DNA from: Pseudomonadota bacterium
GTDB taxonomy: Bacteria > Pseudomonadota > Gammaproteobacteria > Burkholderiales > JAKAFK01
Length of the DNA stretch: 64,000 bases
Direction of reading: 5' to 3'
NCBI GenBank assembly: GCA_021817985.1
Contig: JAKAFK010000011.1
Coordinates: 1 to 64,000, forward strand
The notes under the pieces are model-generated. The model was not told the origin of the DNA. It saw only the letters and a program-made list of their open reading frames with translations, and made no database searches. The position numbers were made by a program, and so were the translations under genes. Position 1 is the stretch's first letter, and each line of letters opens with the position of its first letter. This document shows positions 3,715-45,671 of this stretch, one piece after another.

Positions 3715-5892
3715 TCAGGCAAGCCAGCGCTGCGCAAACCGTTCCGCCGGCTCCGGGTGCCCGAAATGGTAACCTTGCGCCGTCGGACACCCCAGATCAA
3801 GCAGTGCCTGCGCATGCGCGGCGCTCTCGACGCCTTCTGCGACCAGGTCCATCCCGAGGCTTCTCGCCATCCCGATGATCGCCCGTACGACGACATGGTC
3901 GTTGGGACTTTCCAGCATGCTGCGGACGAAGCTCACGTCGATTTTCAGGGTGCCGGCCGGCAGCCGGGAGAGATAGGCGAGCGAGGAAAAACCGGTGCCA
4001 AAATCGTCGATGGCCAGTGCAAACCCCTTTGCCGTCAACGTCTTCATCGCCTCGATGGTCGCCGCCCCGTCCCCTGCGAAGAGGCTTTCGGTGAGCTCCA
4101 ATTCCAGGTCCGCCGGCGAGGCGCCCGCGGCCTCGACGATTCGAGCCGCCTTCAAGGCAAAATCGGGCACGCTGAACTGCGCGACGGAGACATTGACGCT
4201 CAGCCGGCCGGGAAATCGCAGGCCCGCGTTTCGCCAGGACAGCAATTGCCGGCTGGCGCTGCCAATCACCCAGTTGCCCAGCTCGGGCATCAGCCCGCGC
4301 TCCTCCGCGACGGGGATAAACTGGTCCGGGCCGATCCGTCCCAGGACGGCGTCATTCCAGCGAAGGAGCGCCTCGGCACCGACGAGCGTGCCGGAGGCGA
4401 TATCGATCTTCGGCTGGTAAAAGAGCTCCAGCGCCTCTTCCAGCAATGCCGCCTGCAGGCGCCGGGCGATGTCCAGGCGCCGGGCGAACGCGGAACTCAT
4501 CGCGGGCGAATAAAACCGGATGCCGCCCGACTCGGCATCGGCAAACTGGGCGGCGAGCCCGGCATCGGCATAGACCTCGTCGGGGGTCGCGCGCCCCTCC
4601 GGGTAGCGTGCAACGCCCACCTTGACCCCGAGCGAGACGGACAGTCCATCGACCAGCAGCTTTTCGGCGAGCGCGTTGCGGATCCGCTCCGCCGCCCGCT
4701 GCGCGGTGGCCTCATCGGCCTCGGGCACCGCGAGCGCAAACTCGCTGCCGCCGATTCGCGCAAGCTGCTCCCCAGGAGTCAAGATACCCGCCAGCCGATG
4801 CGCCGACGCCTTGAGCACGGCATCCCCCATGGCATAGCCCTGCGTATGGTTGATCTCCTTGAAGCGGCGCAGGTTCACGAAAATGAGTAACCCGCTCCCG
4901 CCGCGGTGAATCTCCTCTTCCAGAAACGCGGACAGGCCCGCGCGGTTGGCGACCTGGGTCACCGCGTCGACCCGGGCGGATCGGCGCAATTGTGCTTCGG
5001 CCCGCCGGTGAGCCTCGCGCAGTCGCAAGGTCTCGACGCCGAAGGCTATGTCGTCCGCAACCTCGACCAGGAGCCTGAGCTCATCGTCGTCAAAGGCATC
5101 GGGCACATCCGCATAAAGGGAAAGGGCGCCGAAGATCTGACCGTCGACTTTGAGCGGCAGCGCCGCCACCGACTCGATGCCGTGAGCCAGGGCCCGCTCG
5201 CGCCAGGGGGCATACGTAGGGTCCGATCGAATGAAGCGGCATACGACGGGGCGCGCATGCACAATCGCTCGCCCGGTGGGGCCATGCCCCAGCGGATCCT
5301 CCGCCCAGCTCACCGAGAGGGTCTCCAGATAATCGGCGGCCTGACCGGCTCGGGCCAAGACACGCACCGGCTTGCCATCGACTGCCTGAGCCTCCCCAAT
5401 CCACGCGAGTCGGTAGCCTCCCGTCTCGGTGGCCAGGCGGCACACGTCCTGCAGGATGACGGTGCTCCCCGCCGATCGCAAAAGGATGCGGTTGCTGCCG
5501 CTCAAAAACGCCAAGGCGCGCTGCACCCGTTCAAGGGTATGCAGCGTGGTGACGTCGATCAGGCAGGCCAACCCATATTCTTCGCCGCCATCGGCGACTT
5601 TCGTCAGGGAAATGTCCGCGGGAAAGCTCGAGCCGTTCTTGCGGCGCGCGAGGAATACCCGCCCCGTATGCATCCCCCGCCCCACGGAACGAGTGAACCA
5701 TGCGCGCACCATTTGCTCGTGCTTGGCGCGCATTTCCTCCGGCAGCAGGATCCCGAGCGGGCTGCCGATCAGATCGGAAGGCGGGTATCCGAATAGGGGA
5801 ACGACATGGCGGTTGGCATGGCGGATCGTGCCGTCGCGGGATACGACGATCGCCGCGATGGGCAACAAATCGAGCAGGCGTTCGAGAACCAT
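3715..5892 (-). CDS. PAS-GAF-GGDEF-EAL cyclic-di-GMP phosphodiesterase (degenerate GGDEF)
   Basis: A predicted cytosolic sensor enzyme of 725 residues from the ATG at 5892. The order is PAS (about 1-130), GAF (about 150-300), GGDEF-like (about 330-470) and EAL (about 480-725). The cyclase motif is degraded: GGSEF replaces GG(D/E)EF, and the metal-site Asp of the DxDxFKxIND motif is missing (VNLRRFKEINH). The EAL domain looks active, with EALLRW, NVS, ELTESL, IDDFGTGFSSL, KID, AEGVE and QGYHF all present. It should therefore hydrolyse c-di-GMP, with the GGDEF part perhaps a GTP sensor. A start at 6036 is possible but lies in the AT-rich upstream region. Confidence 0.85.
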   Translation of the reverse strand: MVLERLLDLLPIAAIVVSRDGTIRHANRHVVPLFGYPPSDLIGSPLGILLPEEMRAKHEQMVRAWFTRSVGRGMHTGRVFLARRKNGSSFPADISLTKVADGGEEYGLACLIDVTTLHTLERVQRALAFLSGSNRILLRSAGSTVILQDVCRLATETGGYRLAWIGEAQAVDGKPVRVLARAGQAADYLETLSVSWAEDPLGHGPTGRAIVHARPVVCRFIRSDPTYAPWRERALAHGIESVAALPLKVDGQIFGALSLYADVPDAFDDDELRLLVEVADDIAFGVETLRLREAHRRAEAQLRRSARVDAVTQVANRAGLSAFLEEEIHRGGSGLLIFVNLRRFKEINHTQGYAMGDAVLKASAHRLAGILTPGEQLARIGGSEFALAVPEADEATAQRAAERIRNALAEKLLVDGLSVSLGVKVGVARYPEGRATPDEVYADAGLAAQFADAESGGIRFYSPAMSSAFARRLDIARRLQAALLEEALELFYQPKIDIASGTLVGAEALLRWNDAVLGRIGPDQFIPVAEERGLMPELGNWVIGSASRQLLSWRNAGLRFPGRLSVNVSVAQFSVPDFALKAARIVEAAGASPADLELELTESLFAGDGAATIEAMKTLTAKGFALAIDDFGTGFSSLAYLSRLPAGTLKIDVSFVRSMLESPNDHVVVRAIIGMARSLGMDLVAEGVESAAHAQALLDLGCPTAQGYHFGHPEPAERFAQRWLA

Positions 5893-32135: not shown

Positions 32136-35100
32136 TCACGCGAGCTTAGAGATCAGCTTGCCTGCCGACGGTCTTCCGCTGCCCGGGGCAATTTGCGGCG
32201 CCGGCGTTGACTTGGGCGGCACTGGAGCGGGCTGCGCCGGCGCGGCGAACAAGTCGCCGTTGGCCGGATCGAGCGCGCGCTCGATCTCGGTCCATTTGGC
32301 ATCCGACCATAAATGCAGCCGCAGCGCCGGATGCATGGACGCGGCCGTCGCATACACAGCAGTGTCCAGCGCCTCGTTGCGCACGCGCTGCTTGATCCAG
32401 CGGCGCTTGTGCGGGTCGTAGATCTCGGCCGTCAGCTGGGCGTAGTATTCATCCGGCAACGCGTCGGAAAATCGCTCCTGGCGCTCGGTCGCGAGCGCAT
32501 GCTTGCCGTCCGCCGACAGCCGGGCGAATAGCCGCTCCTTCGCGGAATCGACGCCGACCGGCCACATCGAGGCGCCCCCTTTGTGCGTCACGCCGTTGCG
32601 CCGCAGATCGACTTTGCTGGGCTTCGCGATGACCTGGCGGGCCGTCGTGACGCCCTTGACCGCGAACCACCCACGCCGCTCATGCCTGCGGGTAAAGGCC
32701 AGCACGTCGTCCGTGAGGTAGCCCGCATCGATCGCCGCCCGGCTAATGCGCACCGGCAGCCCTGCGGCGTTGATGCACGGCTCGGTGAGGTAGGCCTCGA
32801 GCTCGTCCCATACGGCGCCCTGCGTCGGATCGCCCGGCAGCTCCAGCCAGTCGATCGTCCAGCATGTCCCGCTTCTCCCCCACCCGCGAACCTGTACCGC
32901 CAGGCGATCCTTCTGGACGTCGATGCCAGCGGTGAGCACCAGGCATCCGCGCGGAAGGGTCCGAAGCGCATAGGGCTCGCCGCGATGCTTCAGTTCCTCC
33001 CAGTCGAGCTTCTCCTCGGGATCCGCGCTGCATTCGCCCAGTCGCACGTTCTGGAACACCTTGAACTGCAGCGGGTCGCGCTTCTTTTTTTCGAACTCGG
33101 ACGCGAGCTCGACCCAGGTCAGGCCGAGGCCTGGCGGCGTATATAGTCCGCTGATGTGGAATCCGAGCACCGCGCGGTCTGGAAACGCCGCCACCCACTC
33201 GCCGGCGGCGAGCATGGCGCCTTTATAGGACTCTTCGATCAGCATCCCGCAGTGCTCGCAGGCATATTTCGCCTCGAGGGGCTTTCCTTCCGGCCAGCGC
33301 AGATTATCCCATTGCAGATGCTGTTTCTCCCCGCAATGCGGGCACGGGACGTGATAGCGCTGCTGATTGCTCGCCGTCCATTCCCTATTGATGCGGCTCA
33401 ATGATTCAATGGTCGGCGTGCTGGACAGAAAAATCTTGCGCCGCACGAAGGTGGTGGTCCGGGCCTCCGCGATGGAGACGGGATCCCCTTCGTCATCCAG
33501 GTCCGTCGGGTAGCGGTCCACCTCGTCGAGAAACAGGTAGCGGATCGGCATCGACGCCAGGTCGGCGCTACTATTCGCGCCGCCGATCCGGAGGAGTCCA
33601 CCCGGAAATTCCTTGAGACGCGTCGTATTGCCGCTGTCTCGGCTGCGCGAGGGCATCACCCGGGCGCGCAGCGCGGGAGTCGCATCGATCATCGCCTGGA
33701 GGCGCTGCTTGCTCCATAGCTCGCCGGTATCGACGGTCGGCTGCACGCACAACATGGGAACAGCCTGGGTGGCCATCACATGGCCCGCCCAATTAAGACC
33801 CGCTTCCGTATTATGGGTTGGCACCATTGCTCGACCCGCGAGAAAAAGGTGCCTCGGGTTATCCACAAGAATACATCGAGTGGGAACGCTGGGGACATGG
33901 CGCACGTCAACGATACGTCGCCGCGTTGTCTCGCTGACACGCTTGCCCTCTCGCGACGGCAGACGGGCGGCCTTCCGCTTCAGCCGGAAGATCGGCACGT
34001 CGCTATAGCATACAAAGCTGACGCGATAGGCGCAGGACGATGTCGCGCGGTAGACGCTCGGTTTGAGGCCGAGTGACCATGCTAACTCGAGAAATCCGTC
34101 GCGCAGAGATGCGGAAGCAGTGCAGAACTCGGCGCGTTTCCCCGTCACGTCGATGTAGCCGTCCGTATCCATTAGCCCCTGCATTAGCGCCAGGCGCTGC
34201 TGGATAGATCCACGAAGGAACATCTGCGGGATGTGTTTGTTTCCCAGCACTCCGATGGATGCGAGCAGCTCGGAGAATCGCTTTGGCCTGTCGAGGATCG
34301 GCGAGAGCGGGCGCCCACTGGCAAATTTCATCGAGTGCTCAGACGCGCACTTCCTGCACATTCCGCGAGGCGACCGGCCGACGCTCTCGGTGTCATGCCC
34401 GCGAATGCAATAGCGCGCGCCCTTTTCCTTCGGGTCAATCATCGCGTTCCACACGTGATCGGTCCTGAAATCGATCCGGCGAGTGATCACGGTATGGCCG
34501 GCTGCGCGGATATATCCGGCAATTTCCTCCAGATCGTGGACATGCCCAGTGATCTGCGCACTGACCGAATTCCCGTCGCCCAGCCATGCACCGAGCGAAT
34601 AAGGGTCGACCGGCAGGTGCAGATCCGGCAGGTCCAGCTTCTTCGCCAGGTCGATTGCATAGCGATTTCTACGTCCATGCTTGAACGTCGAAGCGATCTC
34701 CCGCGTAGTGAGTATCTTGATCCCCCGCTTCACACCGGGGCAGTCGTCGACCTCCCATAGGTGTTCCGCGTCGGCGACCAGGCTCGTTCCGTCGCTGAAG
34801 ACCACCTCGAAGCAATCGTGTCCATGAAAAACTTCGGAGACACCCACCACATTCGTGGGCTTTCCGCATGCGTCGAATATCACGTCCCCGACGCGTAGGG
34901 CACCCATGGTGGACCACCCTGACGGAGTGGCAATCGGCGTGTCGACAGCAAGTGCCTTTCCGACCTGCGCCGACGCCATGAACACGATGCGCTGAGCCGG
35001 ATGGTGCGGCGAGAGCGCATCCATAATCGCTCGGAGATAGGGCGTCCTGGATGTACGCCAGCGCCCAGGCTCGGCAGCGCCTTTGCTGGGCAACACGCGC

Positions 35101-35201
35101 TCCGCGTCGGCCCATTCGGACACGGAAATGCGAGGAGGCGTCTTCAGCGCATCTGCGGCGCTTTCGAATACGACCAGGAGGCCGTCGCGAAGATCCTCCA
35201 T
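32136..35201 (-). CDS. Terminase large subunit, lambda gpA family, interrupted by an intein
   Basis: The 1021-residue precursor is a gpA-type packaging ATPase-nuclease with a 382-residue intein in the N-terminal ATPase Walker A region. The exteins join as MASAQVGK + TEAGLNWAGH, giving a 639-residue terminase close to lambda gpA (641). Other blocks are LDEVDRYPTDLDDEGDPVSIAEART, CPHCGEKQHLQWDNLRW and the nuclease-domain GIDVQKDRLAVQVRGWG. The ATG at 35201 (MEDLRDGLLVVF) starts 2 bp after the small-subunit stop. Splicing is needed for function, because the insert splits the P-loop. Confidence 0.96.
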   Translation of the reverse strand: MEDLRDGLLVVFESAADALKTPPRISVSEWADAERVLPSKGAAEPGRWRTSRTPYLRAIMDALSPHHPAQRIVFMASAQVGKALAVDTPIATPSGWSTMGALRVGDVIFDACGKPTNVVGVSEVFHGHDCFEVVFSDGTSLVADAEHLWEVDDCPGVKRGIKILTTREIASTFKHGRRNRYAIDLAKKLDLPDLHLPVDPYSLGAWLGDGNSVSAQITGHVHDLEEIAGYIRAAGHTVITRRIDFRTDHVWNAMIDPKEKGARYCIRGHDTESVGRSPRGMCRKCASEHSMKFASGRPLSPILDRPKRFSELLASIGVLGNKHIPQMFLRGSIQQRLALMQGLMDTDGYIDVTGKRAEFCTASASLRDGFLELAWSLGLKPSVYRATSSCAYRVSFVCYSDVPIFRLKRKAARLPSREGKRVSETTRRRIVDVRHVPSVPTRCILVDNPRHLFLAGRAMVPTHNTEAGLNWAGHVMATQAVPMLCVQPTVDTGELWSKQRLQAMIDATPALRARVMPSRSRDSGNTTRLKEFPGGLLRIGGANSSADLASMPIRYLFLDEVDRYPTDLDDEGDPVSIAEARTTTFVRRKIFLSSTPTIESLSRINREWTASNQQRYHVPCPHCGEKQHLQWDNLRWPEGKPLEAKYACEHCGMLIEESYKGAMLAAGEWVAAFPDRAVLGFHISGLYTPPGLGLTWVELASEFEKKKRDPLQFKVFQNVRLGECSADPEEKLDWEELKHRGEPYALRTLPRGCLVLTAGIDVQKDRLAVQVRGWGRSGTCWTIDWLELPGDPTQGAVWDELEAYLTEPCINAAGLPVRISRAAIDAGYLTDDVLAFTRRHERRGWFAVKGVTTARQVIAKPSKVDLRRNGVTHKGGASMWPVGVDSAKERLFARLSADGKHALATERQERFSDALPDEYYAQLTAEIYDPHKRRWIKQRVRNEALDTAVYATAASMHPALRLHLWSDAKWTEIERALDPANGDLFAAPAQPAPVPPKSTPAPQIAPGSGRPSAGKLISKLA
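33810..34955 (-). other. Class 3 intein with LAGLIDADG homing endonuclease in terL
   Basis: The intein begins with Ala (ALAVDTPIATPSGW) instead of Cys/Ser and ends VPTHN before Thr+1. It has the class 3 Trp-Cys-Thr set: His65-Leu-Trp67 in block B, Cys361 in block F (TRCILVDNP) and Thr at +1. Terminal Asn382 follows a His. A LAGLIDADG endonuclease is embedded, with motifs LGAWLGDGN (about 121-128) and ALMQGLMDTDGYID (about 256-269), plus a Cys-rich finger between them (Cys183, Cys200, Cys203). Both endonuclease acidic residues are present, so homing may be active. Confidence 0.95.
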
Positions 35202-35203
35202 CC

Positions 35204-35782
35204 TCACTGGCCGGCGCTTTTCAGCTTCCGCGGGAACGCCTCCACGCCAGCGGCGAGATCCTGGCAAATCGCGCGGACCTCCTGCTCGATCAGCGCATGG
35301 ATGTCGGCATGGGCCATTCCGGTATGCACCTGGACGGCGATTCGATCCGGGATGCGCTCGAGGCCGTCTACAACGATGCGCATCAGCTCGGCGGTGGCCA
35401 TCCGCACGCGGGAAATCTCCACGAGCTCGCCAAGGCGCTCGCGCTCTTTCAGGGCGGCGAGGCCGGCCTCGTGATGCTCGCGCTTTGCACGGGATGCCTC
35501 ATAGTCATATGCAGGCATCCCGAGAGCGCCCTCGCTTCCTCTCGCGGCATCCGCCGCCTGGGCTGCGCCGTCGCCGACAGATTGTGCGGGGCCTGGGGCG
35601 ACATGTCCGCGCCCGATGACCTTCCGGGTGTTGCGCTCCCACTGGATATCGGCAACGTCCGGATCGATCTTTCCGTCAATGAGCGTGATCCGGCCAGCTT
35701 TCACGGCCTTGCGCACGGCCTCATGCGACACACCGCGCCGGCGGGCATACTCGGCGATCGAAATCAAACCAACTGATGCCAT
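35204..35782 (-). CDS. Terminase small subunit, Nu1-like
   Basis: A 192-residue DNA-packaging recognition protein. The N terminus is a Nu1-type winged helix (SIAEYARRRGVSHEAVRKAVKAGRI) that would bind the cos site, then a linker and a helical C terminus (REHHEAGLAALKERERLGELVE) for contact with the large subunit. It ends 2 bp before the terL ATG. Confidence 0.9.
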   Translation of the reverse strand: MASVGLISIAEYARRRGVSHEAVRKAVKAGRITLIDGKIDPDVADIQWERNTRKVIGRGHVAPGPAQSVGDGAAQAADAARGSEGALGMPAYDYEASRAKREHHEAGLAALKERERLGELVEISRVRMATAELMRIVVDGLERIPDRIAVQVHTGMAHADIHALIEQEVRAICQDLAAGVEAFPRKLKSAGQ

Positions 35783-36932: not shown

Positions 36933-37161
36933 GCGCGCTCTCCTTCAGTACCTCGAGCAGCTTCTCGAGGTAGTGAGTGGCCTTGGCGATCTCCTGCACG
37001 CTTTCGTCCTTGCTGCCCATGCGCATCAGGTATTTCAGTGCGCCGGCGCGATACGCGCCGATTCGCTGCTCGCGCGGCCACGTGTCGATCACGTCCCATG
37101 GTTCCACGCCCATTGTCTTGTAATGGTCGCCCGCGACCTGCCGATCCTTCGCTTTTGTCAT
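36922..37161 (-). CDS. DUF3310-family phage protein
   Basis: A 79-residue protein with the family core VAGDHYKTMGVEPWDVIDTWPR and GALKYLMRMGSKDE, EIAKATHYLEKLLE. DUF3310 proteins are common in phage early regions and are sometimes called nucleotide-kinase-like; biochemical function is not established. It overlaps both neighbours by a few bases. Confidence 0.88.
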   Translation of the reverse strand: MTKAKDRQVAGDHYKTMGVEPWDVIDTWPREQRIGAYRAGALKYLMRMGSKDESVQEIAKATHYLEKLLEVLKESAHVS

Positions 37162-37346
37162 TTGTGTTTTCCTCCATAAAGCAGATCGCCGATCTGGCGC
37201 ACGAACTCGCGCTGAAATCCGTCCAGCCTACTGTCATCCAGGGACACCACGAGGATCTTCTCCTTGCGCCACCCGTCCCGCTTGATTTGCTCCACGTCCG
37301 GCCGGGTCGGCTGGAGTCTCGCCAATGGACAGCGGTACCCGTTCAT
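37158..37346 (-). CDS. Small early protein of unknown function
   Basis: A 62-residue basic protein starting MNGYRCPLARLQPTRPDVEQ with a conserved-looking GWRKEKILVVSLDD core. The ATGA-type overlap with both neighbouring genes supports translation. I do not recognise the family. Confidence 0.55.
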   Translation of the reverse strand: MNGYRCPLARLQPTRPDVEQIKRDGWRKEKILVVSLDDSRLDGFQREFVRQIGDLLYGGKHK

Positions 37347-37507
37347 TTCTCCTCCATCGCGTCGGTCCCAATCACGTGGCCATCCTCGCTGGCCCGGAAA
37401 GTCCCGTCCCGCAAACCCTTGCGGATCCAGCTGTCGACCTCAGCCGGCCCGAAGGCCTTCCGGAGATCGTCTATGAACGCCGAGACCTGCGGCATCTTCT
37501 CCCTCAT
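37343..37507 (-). CDS. Small early protein of unknown function
   Basis: A 54-residue protein from the ATG at 37507 (MREKMPQVSAFIDDLRKAFG), which follows AAAGGATGG. It is helical with a short C-terminal strand (GTFRASEDGHVIGT) and resembles small phage proteins found after replication genes. The frame is open further upstream, but that part runs through the repeat cluster and is not coding-like. Confidence 0.5.
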   Translation of the reverse strand: MREKMPQVSAFIDDLRKAFGPAEVDSWIRKGLRDGTFRASEDGHVIGTDAMEEK

Positions 37508-37532
37508 CCATCCTTTCTCTTTTTTCCCTTGA

Positions 37533-37788
37533 TGTCCCATGTGTCCCAATCGCGTGTGTGCGCGCACACATGCTCGCTGGCGCGCCCCCTCACCCGCGGG
37601 CATGTGCGTGCCCACGTGCGAGGGCCTGAATGGGACACCTCCCGCAAACCGGCATTGGGAGCCGTCTTGCGAGATGTCCCATTGGTGTCCCATTCAATAG
37701 ATTCAATGGGACACCTCGTCCGAAATCAGCATCGGCAGCGCTTTTCCGGTGTCCCGACCTTTTCGGGCCATTGGGACACCCGGTCCCA
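37533..37788. repeat. Cluster of TGGGACAC repeats: candidate phage replication origin
   Basis: Eight copies of TGGGACA(C), in both orientations, lie in about 250 bp of non-coding DNA at 37533, 37541, 37631, 37675, 37685, 37707, 37749 and 37772. The best consensus is AATGGGACACC. Copies at 37684-37694 and 37705-37715 form a perfect 11-bp inverted pair around a 10-bp spacer. A 16-bp palindrome (TGTGTGCGCGCACACA, 37555-37570) is also inside. The cluster lies between the primase-helicase operon and later genes. P4-like primase-helicases bind such iterons, so origin function is inferred. Confidence 0.65.
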
Positions 37789-37858
37789 AAGTTCCCCATC
37801 CCTGGCAGTAAGACACGCGGACGCAGGCCTGCGCGGCTGGCTTTCGCCCAATTGCTCT

Positions 37859-38068
37859 TCACGCTTTCCAGCTCTCCGTCATCGACGAGATGAACTCGTC
37901 ATTCGATTCGACAGCGTCCGACCAGTCCTCCGGACGGACGATCCCGCTTGTGACGCGATCATCGCGCAGCATGGCCGCCACAAGCTCTTCGTACCTCTGC
38001 TGGGCGAGAACGTGCGCTCTCGCCCGTATCCGATGTTTCAAATCTCTCCCGATTCCGTCGGAAGCCAT
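37859..38068 (-). CDS. Small helical phage protein of unknown function
   Basis: A 69-residue protein from the ATG at 38068, which has a strong GGGGGAGATC ribosome site. It is rich in Arg/Glu helices (HRIRARAHVLAQQRYEELVAAML) and ends DEFISSMTESWKA. It follows the primase-helicase by 23 bp and borders the iteron cluster. I do not recognise the family. Confidence 0.55.
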   Translation of the reverse strand: MASDGIGRDLKHRIRARAHVLAQQRYEELVAAMLRDDRVTSGIVRPEDWSDAVESNDEFISSMTESWKA

Positions 38069-38091
38069 GATCTCCCCCGTCACACCCGTGC

Positions 38092-40398
38092 TCATACCGG
38101 GAGGGGCTCTTCGTCGCCTGGTGCCGGATCGTCCGGATGGATGTAGACCCATTGCCTTCGGCCCTTGCTGCCTCTCTTCACGCGCCGGAACCCCAGCATC
38201 GCCATGATCGTGCCGACCCGCTTCGCCTCCTGTTGACCCGCGCCGATCTTGGACACTTCCATCTTTATGGCCTTGGATAGGACGTCCAGGACCGAGACGC
38301 CGTTGCCGTCGGGGCGCACATCCAGGGCCACCTCGGGCTCCGCCAGCCACGCCTGTATAGCGGAGATCCACGGATCGTCGAGCATGCGATGGTCGATCTC
38401 CGGCTTGAAAAGACGGTTGAACTCCTCTTCCTCTGGCCACCACGGCTCACCGGACTTGAACAAATGAACCGCCTCCGCGAACAACTGCTCGCGCTGGGCG
38501 GCCAACCATTCGAGGTCTATTTTCCCCACCAGGATCGGCCAGAACCGGCGATTGCCCGTGAGATCGCGAAGATATTCGTACTGGTTGGTGGTGGCAGCGA
38601 AAACACACTGCCGCGGGTGATCCTCGTAGCTGCGGGAATAGGGCGCGCGGTAGGAATCGACCGCCGAGGAGAGAAACGCCTTTGCGCGAGTGACCTCCGC
38701 GCGGTTCAGCGAATCGAGTTCGGCGATCTCATACAGCCAGCGGCCTCGCAGTGCCATAAAAGAGTCCTTGTCGCCCATGACGAAAGGGGTGTCGCCGAAA
38801 TAGGCTTCGCCGGTCAGGACCTTCAGCGCGGACGATTTCTTTGCCCCCTGGGGGCCCTCCAGCACCAGGACGGTGTCCGCCTTGCAGCCTGGGCGATAGA
38901 TGCGCGCAACCATCATGATGAGCCACATTGTTCCCGCGCGGCGCGCATACTCCGAGCTTGGAACCCCCAGTCCTTTTTCGACCCAGCAAGCGGCACGGCC
39001 GACACCATCCCATTTCATCGCGTCGAGAGCGTCTCGCACCGGGTGCACGCGCCGATCGTGCGCCGCCATGACGATGCCGCCGCGTACCGCATCCACCGCG
39101 CGCAGGAGCATGTCGGCGTTTTGGGCGAGCCAGAGACCCATGCGAAGATCGTCGACGTCGGACCATTCGCCCGGTGTATGATCCCAAGGCAACGCCCCGG
39201 TGCGCACGATCGCGTTGCTGAACTCGTCGAGCGCGATCTGGTTCGCCAGCGATGGATGATGCTTGGCATAGATGTAGACGTTTTCGCGACAGCTCTCGAG
39301 AGCGCCGTTTGGCTTCCGGATCAACTCTCGGCGCCATTCTCCATCCGGCCCAGCGCCAGCCGTGTGAGGGGGGGCGGAGTCCTCGACCGCAGGCTTGCGC
39401 AGGCGCGAGACAACCCAGTCGCGCAAAGCGTCGCCCGTCAGCCCTTCGGCAACCGCGTCGGCGACGTCCCAGCCGTCCGGCTTCTCGCCGGGTTTCGGGA
39501 TTTCGACCAGGCGCACGTCGCATCCGAGCGCCGCGAGGATCTCAGCGATTGCGTTCGCGGCCTTCCAGCCAGGCTGCTCGAATTCCCCGATCGGTGCACC
39601 GGCACGGTCCTTCTTGTCGTCACAGTCGGGCCAGATGACGATCTTCCGGCCGCCGAGACGCGCCCAGTCAGCCTTCTTTACTGCCTTCCCGCCGCCGGGC
39701 CAGCTCACCACGTCGAACCACCGCGCGAGTGCCTGGTGGGCGGCGTCGGCGCATTTCTCGCCCTCGACCACGAGGACGGGGCGCTTGAGGCCCGCATCGC
39801 TGAGACGCTCGAGGCCGTATAGCGGCCGCGGTTCCGGGAACGCGAGCCAGCGCCATTTGCGCTCGGCAGAGTCCGGATCTTCGGCGTAGACGCACGGAAG
39901 CACATCCTTCCCGCCATCCGATTTGACGAACCGGTAGACCACTCCCAGGAGCGCGCCAGCGCCGTCCCGATAGGACCATGTCGCCTGGGGACGTCCCCGC
40001 ACTACATGGGCCCGCGGCGGTTCTGGAGCGTCCGTCGGCACTGGGGAGAGGACACGCCACGGCGTGCGCTTCTTCTCGCCGCCGGGCGTCTCTTCGCGTT
40101 GTTCAGCACCGGCTGACGCGGGCGACTCAGGCACTTCCGCGCCGAGGGAAACGCATGCCTCTTTGAAGGAGAGGCATTGGTGCTTGACCAGGAAGTCGAT
40201 CGCGTTCCCGTGCTCGCCGCACCCGAAGCAGTGATAGAAGCGCTTCTCCGGATTGACCTTGAAAGATGGGGTCTTCTCGGAGTGGAATGGGCAGCACGCC
40301 GTGTATTCCGCGCCGTCCTTCCGGAGTTTTACGTACCGGCCGATCAGCTCAACGATGTCGGTCCGCGCGATGAGCGCGTCGGTGTCTATTTTCGTCAT
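38092..40398 (-). CDS. Primase-helicase (CHC2 zinc finger, Toprim, VapE/VirE-type ATPase)
   Basis: A 768-residue replication protein that primes and unwinds phage DNA. A CHC2 finger (Cys36, His39, Cys57, Cys60) is at the N terminus. A Toprim core has VLVVEGEKCADAA (Glu212) and IVIWPDCDD. A C-terminal VapE-type superfamily 3-like ATPase has Walker A LEGPQGAKKSSAL (about 514-522), Walker-B-like LYEIAEL and CVFAATTNQYEYL. It is the only replication enzyme in the phage. It overlaps the upstream gene by 4 bp and lies beside the TGGGACAC cluster. Confidence 0.93.
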   Translation of the reverse strand: MTKIDTDALIARTDIVELIGRYVKLRKDGAEYTACCPFHSEKTPSFKVNPEKRFYHCFGCGEHGNAIDFLVKHQCLSFKEACVSLGAEVPESPASAGAEQREETPGGEKKRTPWRVLSPVPTDAPEPPRAHVVRGRPQATWSYRDGAGALLGVVYRFVKSDGGKDVLPCVYAEDPDSAERKWRWLAFPEPRPLYGLERLSDAGLKRPVLVVEGEKCADAAHQALARWFDVVSWPGGGKAVKKADWARLGGRKIVIWPDCDDKKDRAGAPIGEFEQPGWKAANAIAEILAALGCDVRLVEIPKPGEKPDGWDVADAVAEGLTGDALRDWVVSRLRKPAVEDSAPPHTAGAGPDGEWRRELIRKPNGALESCRENVYIYAKHHPSLANQIALDEFSNAIVRTGALPWDHTPGEWSDVDDLRMGLWLAQNADMLLRAVDAVRGGIVMAAHDRRVHPVRDALDAMKWDGVGRAACWVEKGLGVPSSEYARRAGTMWLIMMVARIYRPGCKADTVLVLEGPQGAKKSSALKVLTGEAYFGDTPFVMGDKDSFMALRGRWLYEIAELDSLNRAEVTRAKAFLSSAVDSYRAPYSRSYEDHPRQCVFAATTNQYEYLRDLTGNRRFWPILVGKIDLEWLAAQREQLFAEAVHLFKSGEPWWPEEEEFNRLFKPEIDHRMLDDPWISAIQAWLAEPEVALDVRPDGNGVSVLDVLSKAIKMEVSKIGAGQQEAKRVGTIMAMLGFRRVKRGSKGRRQWVYIHPDDPAPGDEEPLPV

Positions 40399-44813: not shown

Positions 44814-45671
44814 ATGGCCTCAGAAAAACGATCATATACGGCGGACTTCTTTTGCTTTGAAGAGGATAGCGACCGGGAAAGCGCTGCTTTCCGTAAGCTG
44901 TTGATGGAATATAGCGGGAACCATGCGCCCGCCTACGCGTTGGGGAGCGATTCAGACGTCAAGCATCAGATACGGAGTATTCGAGCGAATCGCGACCACA
45001 GCGTGTTCATGGCCGTATTTGGAAGGTTGCGCCACGGCGAAACTCCAGAGCAAGCGACCGAAAGGGGCAATGACTCAGACGTCGAATTACTCCCGGGACA
45101 CGGTCTAGTTGATAAGAGCCACTTCCTATTCTATCCTGACATAAATCTCCTCGTGCTCCAGCGAAATAGAAACGCCGGGAGCCGCAGTCACTTCCAGGCA
45201 TATCTGAATAAGCCGCATTACAAAAAGCGCGCGCTAATGCCCGTCCTCAGTGAAGATTCATATTCAAAGCTTATGCATGGTGGCACCGTCAAGAAGCTTG
45301 AAATCTCGTTCAAACGCCCGCCGGCTGGCCTGGCCGAACAAAGTGCGTTTCTCGGGGACTGCGTAAGGATGTTTAGCGACTCCGACGCGGCACGCCTGAA
45401 AATGACGCTGACTGCAGAAATCGGGGGGCGACTCCTCGAACCAATGAAGAACGCCATGGTTAAGCTGTCGAAATTTGGAGGGACACGCGTTGCCAGGGTA
45501 ACCATGGCCGAGGATAATGAGATCATCGACCTGATCCTGGACCGTATAACAAAAGGCTTCGATGTCGACCTCCTCGAAAATGGACGCCCCGACCCGCAGT
45601 CAATGTTCGCCGGGCTCGCCCGAGCAAAAGACGCCTGCGCGGAGGACCTCAAGGCTTTCTTTGGTCCCTAG
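44814..45671 (+). CDS. Unrecognised cytosolic protein, first of a two-gene cargo pair
   Basis: A 285-residue soluble protein transcribed just after the repressor. It has mixed alpha/beta content, a central DKSHFLFYPDINLLVLQRN block, LEISFKRPPAGLA, and a strand-rich VARVTMAEDNEIIDLILDR C terminus. No catalytic motif is evident. Its last 11 bp overlap a membrane-protein gene. Codon use is more AT-rich than in the late genes. Position and pairing suggest a lysogenic conversion or phage-exclusion module, which is inference only. Confidence 0.7.
   Translation: MASEKRSYTADFFCFEEDSDRESAAFRKLLMEYSGNHAPAYALGSDSDVKHQIRSIRANRDHSVFMAVFGRLRHGETPEQATERGNDSDVELLPGHGLVDKSHFLFYPDINLLVLQRNRNAGSRSHFQAYLNKPHYKKRALMPVLSEDSYSKLMHGGTVKKLEISFKRPPAGLAEQSAFLGDCVRMFSDSDAARLKMTLTAEIGGRLLEPMKNAMVKLSKFGGTRVARVTMAEDNEIIDLILDRITKGFDVDLLENGRPDPQSMFAGLARAKDACAEDLKAFFGP

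Follow-up and report, generated by a model that had tools for sequence, protein, structure and literature searches.

A cluster of short repeats lying 3' of vapE in an integrated myovirus-type prophage is very probably the replication origin of that prophage (probability about 0.88), where the VapE protein that the gene encodes would bind as a self-loading initiator. The window, the whole stretch of DNA that was analysed, spans 64,000 nucleotides. A sequence-only reading had proposed an iteron origin served by the adjacent VapE-type primase-helicase, and comparative sequence analysis supports this proposal, as clusters occupy the same place in 37 of 46 loci and are present in cultured phages and plasmids. 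The argument draws on the repeats themselves, on the way their location and layout are conserved, on how their sequence covaries with the C-terminal domain of VapE, on the predicted folds of that protein, and on the occurrence of the same module in plasmids.

The genes around vapE encode a CII-like protein, a repressor, an integrase, a gpA-type terminase, a portal, a tail sheath, and baseplate proteins. The presence of tail sheath, baseplate, portal, and terminase identifies the element as a tail-sheath-bearing (myovirus-type) prophage and not as a satellite; with these genes and an integrase, it falls outside the PICIs, which are satellites without capsid and tail genes of their own. The large subunit of the gpA-type terminase (32136-35267, minus strand) has 1043 amino acids, with an ATPase domain that is matched in two stretches and weak LAGLIDADG/Hom_end matches at 346-408, and it probably holds an intein with a homing endonuclease. 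The early region contains a DUF6731 protein of unknown function (44814-45671, plus strand).

The 768-residue VapE protein matches the VapE domain in Pfam with an E-value of 1e-73. An AlphaFold2 model based on a 36-sequence alignment reached a pLDDT of 87, and a single-sequence model with a pLDDT of 35 was set aside. The C-terminus of the accepted model reads as a winged helix, with helices extending to residue 734 followed by strands at 738-742 and 749-753. The best structural match is 7pds (Z 33.3 over 392 residues spanning 351-760, 27% identity), and other matches are to DnaG cores (1d0q, Z 14.3). Consistent with the initiators of the SaPI/PICI type, Pfam, the model, and the match to 7pds together describe a helicase-initiator with a predicted C-terminal DNA-binding domain.

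The repeat GGGACA[C/T] is present in eight copies at 37532-37779, in both orientations, which bears out the earlier count. Five copies are exact TGGGACAC, two are TGGGACAT, and one is CGGGACAC. When the window was shuffled 200 times with its dinucleotides preserved, the count of GGGACA[C/T] in a 250-bp interval never exceeded three. Across the whole window, TGGGACAC is found 8 times (1.35 expected; 100 shuffles peak at 4), and 5 of these 8 sites fall inside the cluster. The inverted pair and the 16-bp GT/AC palindrome of the sequence-only reading are also present: GGTGTCCCATTCAAT (37684-37698) and ATTCAATGGGACACC (37701-37715) form a 15-bp pair with 93% complementarity, the exact inverted pair measures 13 bp (37627-37639 and 37684-37696), and the palindrome TGTGTGCGCGCACACA occupies 37555-37570 within the 23-nt alternating purine-pyrimidine run. 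Measured from the vapE stop, the cluster occupies 312-560 bp on the 3' side, and its two iteron sets, of six and two copies, flank the spacer in the manner of SaPI/PICI-type origins (Table 1).

Table 1. Positions in the window of the candidate origin, its neighbouring features, and the VapE initiator, with the domains of the protein given by residue.
Feature	Position	Strand	Remarks
Initiator/primase-helicase gene	38092..40398	-	768 aa
VapE protein domains (Pfam, AlphaFold2 model)			CHC2 zinc ribbon 6-86; DnaG-like RNA-polymerase/Toprim core about 114-339
VapE protein domains, second half			VapE AAA+ helicase 458-659; C-terminal winged helix about 661-757
First iteron array, vapE side	37631..37779		6 iterons; motif shared with L024, whose VapE is 67% identical
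First-array iterons	37631-37638(+), 37674-37681(-), 37685-37692(-), 37707-37714(+), 37749-37756(-), 37772-37779(+)		
Second iteron array, distal side	37532..37548		2 iterons: 37532-37539(-), 37541-37548(-)
Central spacer	37549..37630		82 bp, 72% GC; median of relatives 97 bp
Alternating purine-pyrimidine tract GCATGTGTGCGCGCACACACGCG	37551..37573	-	23 nt, letters of the minus strand; candidate unwinding or Z-prone element
Possible linker box TCCCGCAAACCGGCATTGG	37640..37658	+	between iterons; like the AAACCCGCATGGATACTGG boxes of relatives, by eye
Possible second linker box CGGAAAAGCGCTGCCGATGCTG	37728..37749	-	compare CGGAAACCCGCGCCAATGCTG of L061; by eye
Small ORF MREKMPQVSAFIDDLRKAFG...	37343..37507	-	start directly past the distal array; translated from DNA by eye

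The scanned minus-strand ORFs around the cluster, where coding evidence had been noted as weak, yielded no Pfam match, and the sole PHROG match among them, of unknown function, lies outside the cluster at 37158-37346. The small ORF past the distal array is a conserved one (MREKMP...FIDDLR..FG) that matches no Pfam or PHROG family; similar starts occur past the clusters in L001, L024, and L029. Because the repeats directly precede this ORF as well as the late genes, run in both orientations, and form inverted pairs, which is common in operators, they could also be the binding sites of a phage transcription regulator that controls the switch between the replication operon and the genes downstream of it. 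Such a role is unlikely, as the same module is found in small plasmids that have no late genes, the sequence of the motif tracks the C-terminal domain of VapE, and a scan covering promoters of the sigma-70 type detected none in 37300-38150. The cluster may nevertheless serve as both origin and operator.

An exceptionally stable nested hairpin (37625-37700, z -6.0) joins two iterons and their linker. Together with a second strong prediction on the transcribed strand (37680-37720, z -5.65; both with DNA parameters), it would suit repeats that act as RNA hairpins ending the vapE transcript by termination, attenuation, or processing. This explanation is extremely improbable, given that the minus strand shows no terminator signal, that two arrays with a similar-sized spacer and outward polarity recur across loci, and that the motif covaries with a predicted DNA-binding domain. 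Comparison of the cluster with Rfam gave no family match.

Protein searches supplied the loci used to assess conservation; their sources were public genomes, IMG/VR, annotated phages, and plasmids. The 8-mer that is repeated most densely within a locus lies at -20 to +820 bp from the vapE stop in 37 of the 46 non-redundant loci; locus lengths predict 4.07 of 46, and 36 of the 37 beat all 20 shuffles. Repeats beside vapE, whose absence from all phages with this primase would have spoken against an origin, are found in most of these loci, with many unrelated phages and several plasmids among their carriers. The place is kept and the repeat sequence is lineage-specific. The window, L024, and (as a core) L071 have AATGGGACA repeats, and many other loci have AGGTTAGACG or AGGTTGGACG. 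Among cultured phages, clusters 3' of vapE consist of GTGGGACAG in the P. aeruginosa phages U5, Haddon, and LPPA36, and of GGGGTGACC in Marinobacter phage PS3. Quite different repeats lie 3' of the gene in further vapE phages, several of them Gram-positive, including TGATGCAACA in eight copies in S. aureus tp310-2, ACTGCAACA in Paenibacillus Logan, CTACCGAT in S. pneumoniae IPP40, GGTATCCAT in Enterococcus phiFL4A, and GGTTGGTAC in APSE-3; Lactococcus bIL312 likewise has a cluster in this position. Some elements depart from this pattern and count against the origin reading: Bacteroides BF503P1 and the satellite Javan30 have no cluster directly 3' of vapE, and in Burkholderia phage Mica (L036) and Escherichia phage Bas97 (L133) a GGTGACAA cluster lies 1.8-2.8 kb downstream of the primase gene. 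The clusters of Mica and Bas97 are possibly displaced origins.

The plan of the clusters, read in the direction of vapE, comprises an array, a spacer with a median of 97 bp, and a second array of opposite polarity. In 37 of 40 loci, the spacer-adjacent GGTNNGAC-type iterons of both arrays read away from the spacer. The distal array of the window consists of two iterons only, a point against its being an origin. A linker box, (G)AAACCCGCATGGATACTGG, recurs among relatives, with the 7-mer AACCCGC present in 22 of 41 masked clusters against about 1.2 expected and at most 8 under the null; the window has no exact AACCCGC and holds two stretches that resemble the box by eye only. Mirroring of the linkers between the two arms is significant in 14 of 41 loci, the window not among them.

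Alternating purine-pyrimidine tracts are a common property of the spacers. Compared with shuffles of their own composition, 37 of 46 spacers have a significant tract (p=0.003 for the window, mononucleotide shuffles), and in 37 of 41 loci the tract reaches at least the 99th percentile for the locus that holds it. The longest alternating runs are mostly 11-59 nt; that of the window has 23 nt and that of L064 has 59 nt. Between loci the tract keeps its alternation and changes its letters. An AT-rich stretch is also common among relatives, with 22 of 35 GC-rich loci reaching an AT fraction of 0.6, but the spacer of the window contains no AT-rich melting region, which argues against the origin reading: its maximum AT per 30 bp is 0.37, and its softest 30 bp lie at the 24th percentile of the locus.

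The covariation of repeats and protein points to the C-terminal domain as the part that reads the iterons. Across 37 phage and prophage loci, motif distance correlates most strongly with the distance between VapE C-terminal domains (r 0.49). The partial correlation for the C-terminal domain given the helicase is 0.345 with a permutation p=0.002, a Mantel-type value on related sequences that is indicative and not proof, and that for the helicase given the C-terminal domain is -0.08 (the same 37 loci). It is unlikely that the primase half reads the iterons, because L071 has a different primase part (PriCT_2) and keeps the TGGGACA core, and because the VapE proteins of plasmids pGO128 and P3 have no recognisable primase domain. 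The same L071 weighs against the origin reading, as it has the TGGGACA core despite a C-terminal domain only 35% identical to that of the window. L040 has its cluster at a displaced position, +942 bp from vapE. Between vapE and the iterons of this locus stands a separate gene for a VapE C-terminal winged-helix domain (5090-5374, E 2e-10), and the iterons start about 127 bp past it. If the C-terminal domain is the reader, residues about 655-768 should bind their own iterons only, and not GGTTGGACG or scrambled DNA.

Arrays 3' of vapE are also found in plasmids, namely pGO128 (4.3 kb), Serratia P3 (12.9 kb), E. coli pLAO97 (10.2 kb), Komagataeibacter pKNA06, and Roseomonas p1318-5. Among the scanned proteins of the circular plasmids pGO128 and P3, Pfam revealed no known Rep family other than VapE, with HTH proteins of unknown role present. 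Natural vapE plasmids of this sort indirectly support the idea that the module can replicate autonomously. The cumulative GC-skew minimum falls within the cluster in P3 (4250) and pLAO97 (2879); the two plasmids are related, so their minima count once. As a point against the origin reading, neither the prophage nor U5 nor PS3 shows a clear switch of GC skew where its cluster lies. Iteron arrays can act in plasmid control, and the cluster could accordingly be a site of copy control, incompatibility, or partition to which VapE or some other protein binds, with replication starting elsewhere, as the GGTGACAA clusters away from vapE in Mica and Bas97 might suggest. This is very unlikely in view of the cloned PICI rep-ori precedent (PMC6092414), the skew minimum at the cluster in the two related plasmids, and the single cluster per element in several cases, with all motif sites of PS3, pGO128, and P3 sitting inside it. 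P3 (L122) and pLAO97 (L123) are small VapE plasmids shared among members of the Enterobacterales that carry ProQ/FinO-family and resolvase genes, and their records give no replicon type.

The alpha protein of P4 is a primase-helicase initiator that acts with short iterons at separate ori and crr sites, and its primase is AEP-like, different from the DnaG type. The window differs in that a single bipartite site follows the gene immediately on its 3' side and in that the N-terminal half of the protein is made up of a CHC2 zinc ribbon and a DnaG/Toprim core. The likeness to P4- and PICI-type origins drawn from the sequence alone hence stands for SaPI/PICI, which is the closest precedent, and not for P4, because the primase part is DnaG-like. 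The C-terminal domain of SaPI Rep reads iterons directly downstream of its own gene (PMC7581432), and PICI origins have two iteron sets, with cloned rep-ori able to replicate (PMC6092414). The pri-rep-ori modules of SaPI Rep and EcCICFT073 resemble the window in that a helicase-initiator gene is followed by two iteron sets around a spacer (PMC7581432; PMC6092414). They differ in that the module of the window resides in a tailed prophage of full length that encodes a portal, a terminase, and a tail of its own, its primase is of the DnaG type, and its spacer is GC-rich with an alternating tract, whereas the PICI spacer is AT-rich. S. aureus PriRep1 (7pds), a staphylococcal VapE-family helicase solved with dsDNA, shares the fold of the helicase and C-terminal domain, to which the protein of the window adds the zinc ribbon and DnaG-like core. 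SCCmec Cch2 is similar in being a helicase with a C-terminal domain that binds repeats downstream of its operon; the isolated domain binds its putative origin, but Cch2 belongs to another helicase family (D5/Primase_Cterm) and has three 5-nt iterons (PMC7581432).

We infer from these comparisons that binding, opening, bidirectional loading, and initiation take place at the cluster. In the proposed mechanism, the C-terminal winged helix would bind the GGGACA[C/T] iterons, and one hexamer would assemble on each side of the 82-bp spacer. The spacer with its alternating purine-pyrimidine tract would then open, the helicases would load and move apart, and the DnaG-like N-terminal half would prime. 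A tentative and somewhat doubtful extension is that a Z-prone tract between inverted arrays replaces the AT-rich unwinding element, especially in GC-rich phages, such that a physical property is kept and not a sequence, and that specificity evolves through the C-terminal winged helix to give many mutually incompatible origins on one scaffold.

Origins of this kind are already known from SaPIs and PICIs. Judged by the literature searched, several points may be new: full-length VapE phages and vapE plasmids regularly carry the module, its iterons obey a rule of outward polarity, their sequence covaries with the C-terminal domain, and the spacer holds an alternating tract. The searches, mostly without subscription journals, returned nothing on VapE with origin, iterons, and prophage, on Sfi21, or on Pseudomonas phage iterons, and the phrase alternating purine-pyrimidine tract was absent among the matches listed.

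The analysis raises the question of whether, in GC-rich genomes, an alternating purine-pyrimidine tract can take over the part of AT-rich DNA in opening an origin. The paired data on DNA-binding domains and their sites are usable for decoding specificity. A simple rule also emerges, in which the few hundred bases 3' of vapE predict the origin in many temperate phages and some plasmids for which the database records examined annotate none.
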